IMG/VR virus record: IMGVR_UViG_3300046028_006182
Coordinates: 1 to 64,000 of that record
Source of the DNA: a virus
Strand: one strand, 5' to 3'
Length of the DNA stretch: 64,000 nt
Below the pieces are notes generated by a model. It saw only the letters and a list, made by a program, of their open reading frames with translations. It made no database searches and was not told where the DNA came from. Each line of letters starts with the position of its first letter. Positions within the stretch are counted from its first letter, which is position 1. The position numbers were made by a program, and so were the translations under genes. Below are positions 2,766 to 58,808 of the stretch, in pieces.

Positions 2766-3047
2766 TTATTTCTCCATTACTACAATGACTGGGGTAGTAT
2801 AGCTGTGACTAGCCGAGCCGCCCTGGGTATAGGCGTTGCCACTCACCCAACCTTGAGATACCATGGATACTACTCGATAGCCTTTAGCGTAGTAAGTATT
2901 CATTTCACTAGTCAAGGCATTAGCATCAGATTTCACTATCACTACCTGGCTCGTAGAGCGGGTAGTCAATGTACTGATACCCACCGTAGCGGAAATTGAG
3001 AGTAGGGCTACTAGTACTAGAGCCCATGTTGTGTTTAAAGTTTTCAT
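2766..3047 (-). CDS. Signal-anchored protein, DUF4177-like
   Basis: Residues 1-24 form a positively charged then hydrophobic segment that acts as an uncleaved anchor or a signal peptide. The remaining 70 residues resemble the small DUF4177 fold: an Asn/Leu helix, then Gly-Tyr-Arg-Val-Val-Ser-Met-Val, and a C-terminal strand ending Val-Met-Glu-Lys. The domain call is from memory of the family pattern and is tentative. The product probably sits at the outer face of the inner membrane or in the periplasm. Confidence 0.65.
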   Translation of the reverse strand: MKTLNTTWALVLVALLSISATVGISTLTTRSTSQVVIVKSDANALTSEMNTYYAKGYRVVSMVSQGWVSGNAYTQGGSASHSYTTPVIVVMEK

Positions 3048-18090: not shown

Positions 18091-18858
18091 ATGGCAACTC
18101 CTATAGCTAGGTTTAGCTTTAGCAATAACTATCTGGTAGTGGCATTCAGTGATACCTCACTGAATAGCCCTACCAGTTGGCTATGGGACCTTGGGGACGG
18201 TTCAGCTTCAGTTATCACCCAAAATCTATCCCACACCTATACTACCCCGGGTATATATCGAGTAGTACTACAGGCTACGAACTCAGACGGTAGCGACTCC
18301 TACACATTTGACGTAGTAGTAAGTGATGTTAATATAGTACCCTTTACAATAGCTCAGCTAGTGGCAATGGGTATACCATCGGGTATAACAATACCCCCGG
18401 ACTACTTAAAAGCACAAGTAGCTAAATGGCAAACCCTACTAGGAGCCCCAAATTCAATAAATGTTCCTGCCCCCGATACTTACGATGAGACCAAGTGGCC
18501 TGCTCTTGCTAATGTATTAATAGCTAACCTAGTTATCTATGACTATATAATTAGCTTGACTAACAACTCAATCATATCAGGAAATACTAGCAGCGGCTCA
18601 ACGAGCGCTATTTCAGAAGTAAAACAAATTAAGACTGGTCCAACAGAAGTTGAGTATTTCTCGAGTAACCAGGCCCTATCTGACTTCCTTAAAGCATCTG
18701 ACTTTTTTACCATGTCTAAGGGTAATATCTGTGGTATAGCAGATGCGCTAGGGATATACTTGAATATGTGCCCAGCTAGGAAGAACTCTGTACCTTTCAT
18801 AGTAATTAAAAAGGAAACGGCTATAGCCCAGTGGGTATGGCCATATAATTGCAGCTAA
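18091..18858 (+). CDS. Neck/adaptor protein with N-terminal PKD domain
   Basis: Residues 5-82 form a PKD domain (Phe-Ser...Ser-Trp-Leu-Trp-Asp-Leu-Gly-Asp-Gly, then His-Thr-Tyr, then Gly-Ile-Tyr-Arg-Val-Val-Leu-Gln-Ala-Thr-Asn). Residues 88-200 resemble head-tail adaptor (gp6-like) proteins, with helices such as Ile-Ala-Gln-Leu-Val-Ala-Met-Gly and Leu-Ala-Asn-Val-Leu-Ile-Ala-Asn-Leu. Position before other neck genes supports the adaptor role. A PKD domain on a connector is unusual and would project from the neck to touch carbohydrate or protein. There are three Cys in the C-terminal region. Confidence 0.7.
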   Translation: MATPIARFSFSNNYLVVAFSDTSLNSPTSWLWDLGDGSASVITQNLSHTYTTPGIYRVVLQATNSDGSDSYTFDVVVSDVNIVPFTIAQLVAMGIPSGITIPPDYLKAQVAKWQTLLGAPNSINVPAPDTYDETKWPALANVLIANLVIYDYIISLTNNSIISGNTSSGSTSAISEVKQIKTGPTEVEYFSSNQALSDFLKASDFFTMSKGNICGIADALGIYLNMCPARKNSVPFIVIKKETAIAQWVWPYNCS

Positions 18859-20856: not shown

Positions 20857-22764
20857 ATGCCAACAGCACCTACAGTAAATATCTCCTTAGTAGATAGCTC
20901 GTTCCAAGCTCTGCAACCCCAAAGAGGCCTAAGCTTTGTAATGGGTATAACCAAGAGGGGCCCAGTAAATGACCCCTCTACGATAATTACCTCATGGGCT
21001 CAGTTTACTGAGATATTTGGGGGGTATATAGGTAATAGCGACTTCCCCCTGCTATGCAAAAGAGCTTTAGACCGGGGCGCGTTACTAAGGGTAAACCGGA
21101 TAGTAAACTACACGGATATTACTGACCCGGCTACTATAACAGCCGACACCGCAGTATTGGATGCCGGGACTACTTTATCTTTTAGTGCTGCTCTAGTAAC
21201 AAGCAACACCGTGAATTTAACTATTGACGGTATAGCGATTACACAGGCATTTGCTACTGATAATGACACCACCTTTACTAACCTAATAGCTACTTTGAAT
21301 GGTAACACTACCCTAGCAGCTAGCTATATATTTATCCCTATCCCTGCTACTGGCTTAGGTAGTATAGAGGGGATAGTGATAGTTAATAAAGTACCATTGA
21401 CGGCAGGAGCAAATGTAACTCTACACACTGTAACAGGAGGAGCAAGCCAAGCCACTATAACAGTTGCTAGCTTAACTGACGGCTCAATATTTGCTAATAG
21501 CTTGTATAATACTCCACTCTTTCAAATCACTGTTAAGAACCCCGGGGAAGATGGTAACTACATTATCGTATCTATAAATACCGCGAGCAACGGTAGCTCT
21601 GACTACTTTAACCTAGCAGTTACCCACTTGCTAGAGCCCAATCTTAATGAGCTATACGAAAACTTGATAGTAGACACTGTTAGTGGTACAGGAGCTCCCG
21701 CAAATGCTTCCACTTACCTTTCAGCTCTATCTACCTCTAAGCTAATAGACTATACCTACCTAGATGCTGATACCGTTACTGGGCAACCAAGGCCATTAGA
21801 TTGTGCTCTATATGCCTTTGATGGTGGTGATGGCTCTGCGGTAACGGTAACTGACTATGTTGGGGACTCAGCTGCAAAAACTGGCTTCCATGCTTTTGAT
21901 GCTTACTCGGATGCCTACCAAATATGTGTACCTGAGCTATCAGATGATACCCTACACGTTGGGGGTGCTGCTTATGCTGCGGCAAGAAAAGACCTTCTTT
22001 ACCTAGCCCACTTAGACAACAGCTTCATCACCCGTGCTGACTTAACCACTGAGCGGGATGCCACTAATATTGACACCCGGTATGCGATGTTCTTTGCCGG
22101 GGGCTTGAAAGTAAGTGACCCTCAAACAGGGGTTACCAAGTCAATTAGTGAAATGGGCGATGTAATCGGCTTAATTGCTTATAGTGATACCGTAACAGGG
22201 GGCGGAGAATGGATGTCCTTTGCTGGAAAGAACCGGGGTTTCATCCCTAATGCTTTAGGCGTAGTAAATAACTTTGGAGGTACCGCTCAATACGCCGACA
22301 TTGATTTGCTAGCTAAAAGGCAAATCAATATGGTAGTAAACTCGGGAGGTACTATATATCTTAACAGTAACTTCACAGCACAGCTTGCAAGCTCTCGAGC
22401 CTCTTTTGCTGATACCATGCGATTTGTATTCCGATTAAGTAAGGAGCTAGGCTCTATACTTCAAAGGTATCTGCAAGAGCCTTTAGACCTACAGCTAACT
22501 AACCAGATATACGATGACGCTAAGGTACTCCTAGATGACTACCTATCATCCAACAAAAGAGCATTGCTACGATACCTTTGGGTGGGTGGGCAAAACTCTA
22601 AGAGCTTAGCTGACTTATTTGCTACAACCAGCAATACCCAGCCTAATTGGGAAAACGGGATATACGAGATTACCTTGCAGATTAGTAAAACCCCTGCCTT
22701 GCAAGTTATAAATTGTACTATCAAGTTAACCCCATCTACTGCAACCGTAACCGTAAACTTCTAA
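20857..22764 (+). CDS. Tail sheath protein
   Basis: This 635-residue contractile sheath subunit forms the outer tail cylinder that contracts at infection. Recognisable features are the N-terminal Arg-Gly-Leu-Ser-Phe-Val-Met-Gly-Ile-Thr-Lys-Arg-Gly-Pro-Val (about 23-37), the variable beta-rich insertion (about 90-260), and the conserved C-terminal domain with Phe-Val-Phe-Arg-Leu-Ser-Lys-Glu-Leu and Leu-Gln-Val-Ile-Asn-Cys-Thr-Ile-Lys. It is followed 19 bases later by the tube gene, as in all contractile tails. Confidence 0.93.
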   Translation: MPTAPTVNISLVDSSFQALQPQRGLSFVMGITKRGPVNDPSTIITSWAQFTEIFGGYIGNSDFPLLCKRALDRGALLRVNRIVNYTDITDPATITADTAVLDAGTTLSFSAALVTSNTVNLTIDGIAITQAFATDNDTTFTNLIATLNGNTTLAASYIFIPIPATGLGSIEGIVIVNKVPLTAGANVTLHTVTGGASQATITVASLTDGSIFANSLYNTPLFQITVKNPGEDGNYIIVSINTASNGSSDYFNLAVTHLLEPNLNELYENLIVDTVSGTGAPANASTYLSALSTSKLIDYTYLDADTVTGQPRPLDCALYAFDGGDGSAVTVTDYVGDSAAKTGFHAFDAYSDAYQICVPELSDDTLHVGGAAYAAARKDLLYLAHLDNSFITRADLTTERDATNIDTRYAMFFAGGLKVSDPQTGVTKSISEMGDVIGLIAYSDTVTGGGEWMSFAGKNRGFIPNALGVVNNFGGTAQYADIDLLAKRQINMVVNSGGTIYLNSNFTAQLASSRASFADTMRFVFRLSKELGSILQRYLQEPLDLQLTNQIYDDAKVLLDDYLSSNKRALLRYLWVGGQNSKSLADLFATTSNTQPNWENGIYEITLQISKTPALQVINCTIKLTPSTATVTVNF

Positions 22765-22783: not shown

Positions 22784-23242
22784 ATGGCACAAATTCAGAA
22801 CCCCAGGAAGAAATTTAACTTCCAGATATATATACCAGGCCTTAACCCATTCCTTGCCCAGAATGTAACCTTACCCGATATCGGTACCGAGGTGGATGAG
22901 CATGGTGATGCAAACTATAAAGTTAAGACCCCCGGAATGTCAGTTGTAGGTACCTGTAAAGTAGAGAAAATCTCTATCGCTACCGGCTCAGATAACTGGA
23001 TTTGGGAATGGGTACGACAATGCCAAGATGCTATCACGCAGGGTTTTACTTTACTACCTAGCCAGGTAAAAAGGACTATCCGAGTTGACCAGCTATCAGT
23101 TGATGGGATCACAGTTTTGAATACCTGGGAACTTATTGATGCTTACCCAAGCAATATCAATGGAGTTCAACTTAGCCGGGTTGAGTCAGGTAATACCATG
23201 GAGGATATCGACTTTCAAGTTGACTTAGTTCAAAGGCTATAG
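22784..23242 (+). CDS. Tail tube protein
   Basis: This 152-residue inner-tube subunit is encoded directly after the sheath. The sequence fits the gp19-like fold: Asn-Phe-Gln-Ile-Tyr-Ile-Pro-Gly, then a long beta section, Trp-Ile-Trp-Glu-Trp-Val-Arg (about 67-73) and the closing Asp-Ala-Tyr-Pro-Ser...Asp-Ile-Asp-Phe-Gln-Val-Asp typical of tube proteins. A strong terminator hairpin follows, so tube and upstream genes are probably the end of one strongly expressed message. Confidence 0.9.
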   Translation: MAQIQNPRKKFNFQIYIPGLNPFLAQNVTLPDIGTEVDEHGDANYKVKTPGMSVVGTCKVEKISIATGSDNWIWEWVRQCQDAITQGFTLLPSQVKRTIRVDQLSVDGITVLNTWELIDAYPSNINGVQLSRVESGNTMEDIDFQVDLVQRL

Positions 23243-23295: not shown

Positions 23296-23331
23296 AAAAA
23301 GGGGGGTTATCTAGGTAGCTCCCCTTTTTTT
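23296..23331 (+). terminator. Intrinsic terminator after tail tube gene
   Basis: AAAAAGGGG (23296-23304) pairs with CCCCTTTTT (23321-23329) around a 16-base loop, and the T-run continues to 23331. It ends 23 bases before the next start codon. That leaves no room for a full promoter between them, so partial read-through is likely. Confidence 0.88.
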
Positions 23332-23354: not shown

Positions 23355-24203
23355 ATGGCTGAAAGTACCTTTATTATCCCAATGAACTTGAGTACTGTAA
23401 CCGTAAGGGAACAGACTGGAGAAGACGAAGAGCTCTTAACTCGAAATGAGTATGTAAACAAAGGCGAGTCTGTTTTGAGGTTCTTACAAAGTATCATCAT
23501 TTCCGGTGAGATGTTTGATAACCGTAAACCCACCCTGGACGAGCTTAAGAACACCAGGACCTCTATCCTTAATTATCTACTTTTTAGATCCCGAATATTC
23601 TCACTAGGGGCTGAACTTAAATTTGTCTGGCAATTTAAGGATAACAGGGGTAATATGGTCCCCTATGACATGGTAGAAGACCTCACTCCCTACTACTATG
23701 AGGTGGATGCTGATGCCGTACAAAACCTAAAGTCTTTACTTGCTACTAACCCCTCCGAGTACCAATCAGCCTATAATGAGTGGGCATCTAAACTTAGGGC
23801 CGAGAAAGACATAAGAAAAGTACTTGTTCCTACGCTACTGGACGGTAACGAGTTACCAACAGGAAAGGGTAGAGAATTAACATTGCCAAGTGGACGAAAA
23901 GTAAGATACCAGTATATAACTAGCAATACTTCCAAGTATCTACTAGAGCAGGACGAAAAGAACATATCTCTCAACGACTTATTCTATGCCAGGGTACTAG
24001 AGATGCTATCTGATGATGGCCGTTGGCTTACAGTAAAAACCCTTAGGCCTTTTACTTCTAAGGAACTAGCCACTCTACGGGGCGATATAAATACTTATGA
24101 CTCCACATGGGAACCTAAGATGACAGTACCAAACCCCCACGGAGAAGACCTTATAGTTGACGTGATGGGCTTATCCGATTTTTTCTTCCCGGCTCTGACT
24201 TAG
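23355..24203 (+). CDS. Tail assembly chaperone, frame 0 product
   Basis: The 282-residue product sits between tube and tape-measure genes, the invariant place of tail assembly chaperones, which hold the tape measure while tube subunits polymerise. The sequence resembles T4 gp26/gp51-like chaperone proteins: an N-terminal beta section, Arg-Leu-Leu-like helices, and a helical C-terminal half with Leu-Asn-Asp-Leu-Phe-Tyr-Ala. Near its end a slippery heptamer (24179-24185) and a downstream stem should shift a fraction of ribosomes into the -1 frame, adding 61 residues (total about 338). Confidence 0.8.
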   Translation: MAESTFIIPMNLSTVTVREQTGEDEELLTRNEYVNKGESVLRFLQSIIISGEMFDNRKPTLDELKNTRTSILNYLLFRSRIFSLGAELKFVWQFKDNRGNMVPYDMVEDLTPYYYEVDADAVQNLKSLLATNPSEYQSAYNEWASKLRAEKDIRKVLVPTLLDGNELPTGKGRELTLPSGRKVRYQYITSNTSKYLLEQDEKNISLNDLFYARVLEMLSDDGRWLTVKTLRPFTSKELATLRGDINTYDSTWEPKMTVPNPHGEDLIVDVMGLSDFFFPALT

Positions 24204-24237
24204 AACTGCAGGTAATGTATATGCACAAGTCAGGGCT
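24179..24237 (+). promoter_or_regulatory. Programmed -1 frameshift signal (slip site and stem)
   Basis: In frame 0 the codons read GA-T TTT TTC, so T TTT TTC at 24179-24185 is a classic X-XXY-YYZ slip site. After a 5-base spacer, GGCTCTGACTT (24191-24201) pairs with AAGTCAGGGCT (24227-24237) in an 11-bp stem including two wobble pairs. The -1 frame is open from 24161 to the TAA at 24368-24370. Heptamer, spacer and stem all match known frameshift sites of tail chaperone genes. Confidence 0.88.
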
Positions 24238-24370
24238 AAAGCTAAGTGAATTAGAGATAAGGAATATGCCATCAAAGAGAAGGCTAAGATACATTGAGCT
24301 ATGTGAGGTAGCCAATGAGGCCGATGAGAAACGAGCAGCACCCAAAACTAAAAGTATAACCGATGTATAA
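24185..24370 (+). CDS. Tail chaperone -1 frame extension
   Basis: This is the C-terminal part made after the frameshift: 61 codons from 24185 to a stop that overlaps the tape-measure start by eight bases. It reads Leu-Pro-Gly-Ser-Asp-Leu-Glu, then a charged helical segment (Lys-Leu-Ser-Glu-Leu-Glu-Ile-Arg, Lys-Arg-Arg-Leu-Arg-Tyr). By analogy with lambda G-T, this part binds the tape measure. An ATG at 24215 could also start a separate 51-residue protein, which I consider less likely. Confidence 0.8.
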   Translation, partial: LPGSDLELQVMYMHKSGLKLSELEIRNMPSKRRLRYIELCEVANEADEKRAAPKTKSITDV

Positions 24371-26438
24371 TTACTCAAATCTAGGCATAGGAGTAGCCAT
24401 TAGCTTGAGAGACCAGTTCTCAGCTAAAGCTAATCGTGTTACGGCTAGCATGAATGCTATGCACAACAATGCCCAGATGGTTATGCGTAAGAACCTTGGA
24501 GCTCTCCGCTCTATCGGCATGGGCATGAGTATGGCGTCGGTGGGAGGCATCATGGCTATGAGGGGCTGGATAAGAACTGGTGCAGACTTTGGCTACTCAA
24601 TGTCGGCTGTGAAAGCTGTTACTGAGTCAACAACCGCTGAGTTTAATGCGTTAAGGATGGAAGCCTTACGATTGGGTAGAACTACCAAGTTTACTGCTAT
24701 TGAAGTAGCGGGAGGTATGGAGTACATGGCTAAAGCCGGCATGAAGTATCGAGACGTTATGAACTCTATTAGCTCTGCCACCTTACTTGCAGTAGCCACT
24801 GGTACTGAGCTAGGAGGAGCGGGTGGTACTGCCGACATGGCAACTAATATCCTAACGGCTTTTAACTTAAAGTCTAGCCAGTTCGATAATGTAGCCGATA
24901 TGATTACCGCAGCAGTGAACAAGTCAAACGTCGATTTAACAGATTTCCATGAGGCTATCAAGTACTCAGCCAATGACTTTTATAATGCCAATATAGACTT
25001 TGCTCGAGCAGCCGCAGTAATAGGTACCTTGGGTAACGCCGGTATTAAGGGTAGTATGGCTGGTACTGCGGCTGGTAACGTGATCCGTGAATTAACAAAA
25101 GCCGTAACTCAATTCAGAACAAACCGGCAAGGGCAGGGTTTAGCTGCTCTAGGCCTAGCCCCAGAGGATATACTTGACTCAAAGGGCAATCTTCTAGATA
25201 TCCTTGACATTATGGATAAGTTTAGAGGTAAGGTAACTATTGGGGATCCCACCTCTATAGCGGCTCTAGGAGCTGTAACAGGAGTAAGGGGTAACAGAGC
25301 TATGACTGCTTTAGTTAAAGAGCTCCAAATGGGGCCTAGTTTTAGAGAGCTATACCAAGAAATACTGGCATCCAAGGGAATGACTTCTCGGGTAGCAGCT
25401 GAGATGATGGACAACCTCAAGGGTGACATGATTATAATGCAATCAGCCTGGGACGGATTTAAAATAGCCTTCACCGATGCCGTTGAGCCTGCCCTTAGGA
25501 GTACTCTACAACTGTTAACGAAAGTAGTAGATAAGATTACCCTGTTTATAGAGACTCCTGTAGGTAAATACTTAGCCGTTGCAGCTGCCGGCCTTGTGGT
25601 AGTAGCTGGAATTGCCGGGGTTTTCCTAACAGTCCTCGGTAGCGTAGGGCTACTGATACAGGGTGCCGCTGTATCTTTTAACGCTATGAAGATGGCAGGA
25701 CTCTGGGCCTACAATGCTTTGATAGCTAGGGCTGGTAAATACCTACTAGTACTTATGGGTATTAAAGCAGCGGAAGGTATAGGCATTAATAAGTCAGGCC
25801 AGTTTTACTCTAAAACTACTGGCCGATTTACTAAAGCCCCCAAGGGTAATGTATTCAGTAAAGTACTTGGAGGTATTTGGAAGAGTTTAGTTGGCATTGC
25901 TCCTTGGCTAGGTAGATTAGCTGCGGGCTTTGCTGGTATTGCAGGAGTTGGTGCAGGTACTATTGCCGCAGTTATAGCTGGAGTTATTGGAGTAGGAGTA
26001 GCTATCTGGGCTACCTGGGACTCTCTAGTTAGGGGTTTTAAAATGCTCGGTAATGCCATTAAGGGTATCGTAGCAACCATATTTCATTCTATTGCCTATA
26101 TCTGGGACCTACTAACAACCTGGTCTTTCGAAACAGCTAACCAGAATTTTAAAGACCGTCAGGACCTAGTATGGGGAAGAATACGCCAATCAGATAATAG
26201 CATAGCAGCGGAAGGTAAGAACCAGGTTGACTGGTCTAAGGATAGGAGCTCAACCAGTATGATGAACTTTATTGGCAGAGGCTCACCAACAATAGCTAAA
26301 GATAGCCAAAGTCTTTATGACCAAGTACATAAGATAGGTAACCCTACCTTGCAGATTGAGATAAACCAAACTGGCCAGATGTTACAAAAACACGCTATAC
26401 CGATGACGGATGATGAGGTATTAAAAATTAAAATCTAA
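24363..26438 (+). CDS. Tail tape measure protein
   Basis: A TP901-like tape measure of 691 residues sets tail length; at about 1.5 angstrom per residue this suggests a tail near 100 nm (inference). Residues 1-40 form an N-terminal Ala/Met-rich helix, followed by the conserved core with Leu-Gly-Arg-Thr-Thr-Lys-Phe-Thr-Ala-Ile-Glu-Val-Ala-Gly-Gly-Met near 108-123. Hydrophobic helices around 400-435 and 520-560 are the expected membrane-spanning parts used for DNA entry. It overlaps the chaperone extension by eight bases and the next gene by one. Confidence 0.9.
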   Translation: MYNYSNLGIGVAISLRDQFSAKANRVTASMNAMHNNAQMVMRKNLGALRSIGMGMSMASVGGIMAMRGWIRTGADFGYSMSAVKAVTESTTAEFNALRMEALRLGRTTKFTAIEVAGGMEYMAKAGMKYRDVMNSISSATLLAVATGTELGGAGGTADMATNILTAFNLKSSQFDNVADMITAAVNKSNVDLTDFHEAIKYSANDFYNANIDFARAAAVIGTLGNAGIKGSMAGTAAGNVIRELTKAVTQFRTNRQGQGLAALGLAPEDILDSKGNLLDILDIMDKFRGKVTIGDPTSIAALGAVTGVRGNRAMTALVKELQMGPSFRELYQEILASKGMTSRVAAEMMDNLKGDMIIMQSAWDGFKIAFTDAVEPALRSTLQLLTKVVDKITLFIETPVGKYLAVAAAGLVVVAGIAGVFLTVLGSVGLLIQGAAVSFNAMKMAGLWAYNALIARAGKYLLVLMGIKAAEGIGINKSGQFYSKTTGRFTKAPKGNVFSKVLGGIWKSLVGIAPWLGRLAAGFAGIAGVGAGTIAAVIAGVIGVGVAIWATWDSLVRGFKMLGNAIKGIVATIFHSIAYIWDLLTTWSFETANQNFKDRQDLVWGRIRQSDNSIAAEGKNQVDWSKDRSSTSMMNFIGRGSPTIAKDSQSLYDQVHKIGNPTLQIEINQTGQMLQKHAIPMTDDEVLKIKI

Positions 26439-58738: not shown

Positions 58739-58808
58739 AAATCTCAATTCTAGAGAATTAAAATCTCTTTATTTTTTTAATCATTTAAACATTTCAAACA
58801 CCATCACC

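Follow-up and report, generated by a model that had tools for sequence, protein, structure and literature searches.

Does the tail assembly chaperone gene of this uncultivated phage encode a single protein, or does the end of the gene give rise to two? We addressed this question in a window of 64,000 nucleotides (positions 1 to 64,000 of the 76,141-base IMG/VR record IMGVR_UViG_3300046028_006182), where the features of the locus described below lie on the plus strand. The chaperone gene (23355-24203, 282 aa) is located between a gp19-like tail tube gene (22784-23242; PF06841, E=5.5e-12) and a tape measure gene (24363-26438; PHROG 28, E=1.4e-73; PF10145, E=2.8e-33), the order expected of phage chaperones made in a short (TAC-N) and a frameshifted long (TAC-NC) form. 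As a tail sheath gene (20857-22764; phrog_23, E=1.3e-23) lies upstream of the chaperone gene, the tail was taken to be contractile. An open reading frame in the -1 frame (24161-24370) spans the end of the chaperone gene. Our reading of the sequence is that one mRNA very probably yields two tail assembly chaperones through programmed -1 ribosomal frameshifting.

The surroundings of the locus provided some observations of their own. A PKD-like repeat (WLWDLGDGS...HTYTTPGIYRV, recognized by eye) lies close to the N-terminus of a predicted protein encoded at 18091-18858, within the structural block that runs from the major capsid to the tail sheath gene. Between the tube and chaperone genes there is a terminator-like hairpin of 15 pairs (23296-23329, AAAAAGGGGGG...CTCCCCTTTTT followed by TTATTT), and T-tract hairpins were also seen 5' of the chaperone gene in about half of the 42 relatives introduced below; the hairpin in the window might set the ratio of tube to chaperone expression. 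The leaders at the chaperone start, in the window and its relatives, are A/T-rich with no evident Shine-Dalgarno sequence, which would fit Bacteroidota hosts.

The end of the chaperone gene reads GA-T TTT TTC-TTC, so that a slippery heptamer of the X XXY YYZ type, T TTT TTC, lies at 24179-24185 close to the 3' end of the zero frame and encodes Phe-Phe in both frames. The zero-frame stop (TAG, 24201-24203) follows 15 nt after the heptamer. Direct reading of the sequence thus agreed with the placement of this heptamer, in the zero frame of the gene at 23355, in an initial annotation of the window. The record as a whole contains one copy of TTTTTTC on the plus strand and nine on the minus strand, and among the Phe-Phe dipeptides in long plus-strand ORFs (n=28) the heptamer at 24179-24185 was the sole coding T_TTTTTC. 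The single T_TTTTTT sequence, at 58773, was considered as a second slip site and rejected, as it lies upstream of the ATG of its ORF and has no -1 extension.

After a shift at this site the first codon would begin at 24185, and the frame then stays open until the TAA at 24368-24370, giving an extension (TAC-C) of 61 aa (24185-24367). Joined to the 277 residues that precede it, this gives a predicted fusion of 338 residues, the size that had been proposed earlier. The -1 frame was described in the same annotation as open from 24161 and as ending exactly at the tape measure start; the first part is correct, and the end falls slightly inside the tape measure gene (ATG at 24363), resulting in an overlap of 8 nt. 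Structure prediction for the extension gave a helical model (pLDDT 77).

We then assessed whether slip site and -1 frame are retained in relatives. Homologues of the chaperone were found by tblastn in human-gut phage records (MT121960, MT121964, MT837498 and KX501134-139; 20-28% identity), and in total they comprised four distinct phage records and about 50 IMG/VR loci. Scans of viral contigs with single proteins (chaperone, tape measure and sheath queries) detected no relatives. Alignment-based scans returned three IMG/VR loci at first and 50 later, the 50 including the first three, and also a contig catalogued under a Dysosmobacter MAG. A complete gene end was present in 53 loci, including the window, and 42 were left after removal of near-identical proteins; within this dereplicated set, identity between the window and its relatives was about 22-33%.

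A T-hexamer slip site was found in 50 of the 53 complete loci (48 scored TTTTTTC, two TTTTTTT). The three others (L040, L044 and L054) carry GATTTTTAC in place of the T-hexamer, which would impair canonical tandem slippage, and still keep the -1 extension. After dereplication the T-hexamer was present in 40/42 loci (37 with TTTTTTC, three with longer runs of 8 to 9 T) and TTTTTAC in 2/42, while the open -1 frame was kept in all 42. The 15-nt distance from heptamer to zero-frame stop was seen in 33/42 loci, and in 40/42 a long ORF begins -23 to +84 nt from the end of the extension and is, judged by position, the tape measure. Among these loci we found no relative that keeps the chaperone and has lost both the heptamer and the -1 frame. 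A point against canonical slippage across the whole family is provided by the two dereplicated loci with TTTTTAC, which retain the -1 frame with a sequence that precludes canonical tandem re-pairing. At a Microcystis phage locus whose tape measure matches (L013), a T-hexamer slip site was looked for ahead of the tape measure gene and not found. Another relative (L014) has T TTT TTC twice in frame, the extra copy (3009-3015) being close to the 5' end of its chaperone gene, where the -1 frame stops within a few codons.

The -1 frame is also conserved as a protein. An HMM of the relatives' extensions, built with the window left out, matched 24161-24370 with E=2.5e-12; of the 1,588 stretches obtained by six-frame translation of the window, no other gave a significant match. 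The alignment of the extension across the family has the motifs FFL, GDLE, LP and R.RK in common. In ten disjoint close pairs, differences 3' of the zero-frame stop were distributed over the first, second and third codon positions of the -1 frame as 84/38/145 (66/32/122 without one pair that duplicates another). This substitution pattern shows, at the level of sequence comparison, that the -1 frame is under purifying selection as a protein. ORFs of about 60 codons do arise by chance and a lone heptamer is weak evidence, so a chance ORF, a decaying gene or a sequencing error might be proposed instead. Such an origin is extremely unlikely, as 53 loci, drawn from contigs and records that are independent of one another, have the same arrangement, and the conservation tests, that is the HMM match and the codon-position bias, refute it.

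A conserved -1 frame could alternatively be translated as a small gene from a start of its own; the window offers in-frame ATGs near 24216-24224, and ORFs of this kind are annotated separately in other phages, such as Sf-FS3 (see below). However, 34 of the 42 extensions lack ATG, GTG and TTG throughout the 18 codons that follow the slip site, which argues against independent initiation, and the conserved stretch (FFL...) already begins with the slip site, 5' of any start of this kind. We therefore regard a separate small gene as very improbable.

Slippage could also occur during transcription, if RNA polymerase stuttered on the T run and added one U (or left out two), so that some of the mRNAs would encode the fusion. 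The conservation of a pure T run, which reaches 8 to 9 T in three dereplicated loci, is compatible with this, and DNA comparison does not separate it from ribosomal slippage. Against it, the run is exactly six T followed by C, in the T TTT TTC register, in 37/42 loci, and two loci have only five T; efficient polymerase slippage usually needs a run longer than six T. These features favor the ribosome, and we consider transcriptional slippage improbable, if not quite to the same degree as a separate start. Programmed -1 frameshifting in the chaperone gene, as first proposed for this locus, is thus strongly supported by the conservation of slip site and -1 frame in the sequences of the relatives.

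To determine what could promote the shift, we analyzed the sequence downstream of the heptamer. After a spacer of 5 nt (24186-24190) an 11-bp stem with two G-U pairs can form between 24191-24201 and 24227-24237, in agreement with the initial annotation, with a folding energy of about -17.5 to -18.3 kcal/mol. The 65-nt fold (-18.3 kcal/mol) was modest in comparison with dinucleotide shuffles (z = -1.6), and an equally strong hairpin 4-9 nt past the site was found at about 1 in 400 random positions of the window. Across the 42 loci, strong hairpins (<= -14 kcal/mol) 4-9 nt after the slip site occurred in seven, compared to 6% of background positions (p about 0.015), and the distributions of hairpin energies showed no overall difference between loci and background (p=0.29). 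A conserved downstream stimulatory structure, which is common in this class and not obligatory, was therefore not supported family-wide by this search for hairpins among the 42 loci. Conservation of slip site and stem together had been suggested as a check on the proposal; the slip site passed it, whereas a comparable stem was mostly absent from the relatives. Given this weak family-wide enrichment, we treat the stem as a candidate local stimulator and not as a conserved part of the system; it is plausible that it stimulates the shift locally in this phage.

We next turned to the identity of the short form. The window chaperone itself gave no convincing match in Pfam or PHROG, and direct profile comparison with T4 gp26 and gp51 was not significant. 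Matches to PF12322 (T4_baseplate) and phrog_150 (baseplate hub) were obtained with 17 of 36 relatives (best PF12322 E=5.8e-8), one of which, L018, exceeds the Pfam cut-off for PF12322. The AlphaFold model of the window chaperone (pLDDT 88.8) was compared with predicted structures using Foldseek, and the matches were T4-type baseplate hub, gp26 and gp51 proteins; in BFVD these included a T4-like hub assembly protein (E=1.2e-8) and a hub subunit of Bacillus phage SP-15 (E=1.9e-8), with TM about 0.5-0.6. Among solved structures in the PDB there was no significant match, the HK97 chaperone 2ob9 being weak. The extension was compared with the gp51 C-terminus by hhalign and hmmsearch, with no significant result. 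Taken together, the relatives' Pfam matches and the modeled structure support membership of the short form in the T4 gp26 family, and the earlier gp26/51-like label appears to be well chosen.

These data suggest a model in which most ribosomes would terminate at 24203 and release the 282-aa short form (TAC-N), whilst a minority would slip back by one base on T TTT TTC, their Phe-tRNAs re-pairing to TTT TTT. The slipped ribosomes would read on to 24370 and produce a 338-aa long form (TAC-NC) carrying a small helical domain. If the two proteins act as lambda gpG and gpGT do, the tape measure would be coated by many copies of the short form and a few of the long one, whose extension would bring in the tail tube subunit. 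For annotation this implies a rule that a chaperone ORF and a -1 ORF of this kind be joined as a single fusion.

Tail assembly chaperones with a conserved -1 frameshift are known from lambda gpG/gpGT (Xu, Hendrix and Duda, 2004, as described in PMC5009743). Like the window locus, lambda has two isoforms, a shift near the 3' end of the gene, a gene position between tube and tape measure, and an extension that ends at the tape measure start. In contrast, the lambda tail is non-contractile, and the short form in the window is longer (282 aa) and T4 gp26-like by family and fold. The pairing of a frameshifted chaperone with a contractile tail, pointed out earlier for this locus, is not new: such chaperones are a general feature of long-tailed phages, among them the contractile P2 relatives and Mu (PMC5009743), and in the myoviruses of the Vandenendeviridae and Andersonviridae a TAC-N/TAC-NC -1 frameshift at GTTTTT has been inferred by comparative genomics (PMC12846349). 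The latter share with the window a contractile tail, a poly-T slip site near the 3' end of TAC-N and a -1 extension to the tape measure, and differ in motif (GTTTTT versus T TTT TTC) and in lineage. For poly-T slip signals in T4-like TAC-N, PMC12846349 in turn cites Vladimirov et al. (2022).

The slip motif itself is shared with the cultivated T4-like cyanophage Sf-FS3 and with Acidovorax phage ACP17. In both, a gp26-type gene carries T TTT TTC shortly ahead of its stop, with a -1 frame that stays open beyond it; in the Sf-FS3 annotation the -1 part figures as a gene in its own right, 'baseplate hub assembly catalyst'. The window locus is therefore a well-supported addition, on sequence grounds, to tail-chaperone frameshifts that were already known, and with it a large uncultivated group of contractile-tail phages would join those in which the frameshift is conserved. 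The gp26-like gene of Bacillus phage SP-15 ends, near 2215 of its locus, with GAA TTT TTT CAC in the zero frame; its -1 extension is short and unrelated-looking and its +1 frame looks open on reading the sequence, so the shift in this phage may be of another kind.

T4, the best-known member of the family, is the textbook exception to the frameshift arrangement. PF12322 covers both T4 gp26 (E=8e-65) and gp51 (E=2e-53), that is a short and a long form, and the C-terminus of gp26 (...LKEFFELL) has FF at a position comparable to the slip site in the window. In T4, however, gp26 and gp51 are encoded by separate genes on opposite strands, whereas the window has one gene with a -1 extension. A tentative scenario, to which we give slightly less than even weight, is that the frameshifting gp26-type gene is ancestral, that T4 genes 26 and 51 arose from a duplication that replaced the frameshift, and that the TTTTTAC loci represent another route away from the canonical site. 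Comparison of the frameshift and two-gene solutions within the T4 branch makes the switch between them testable.
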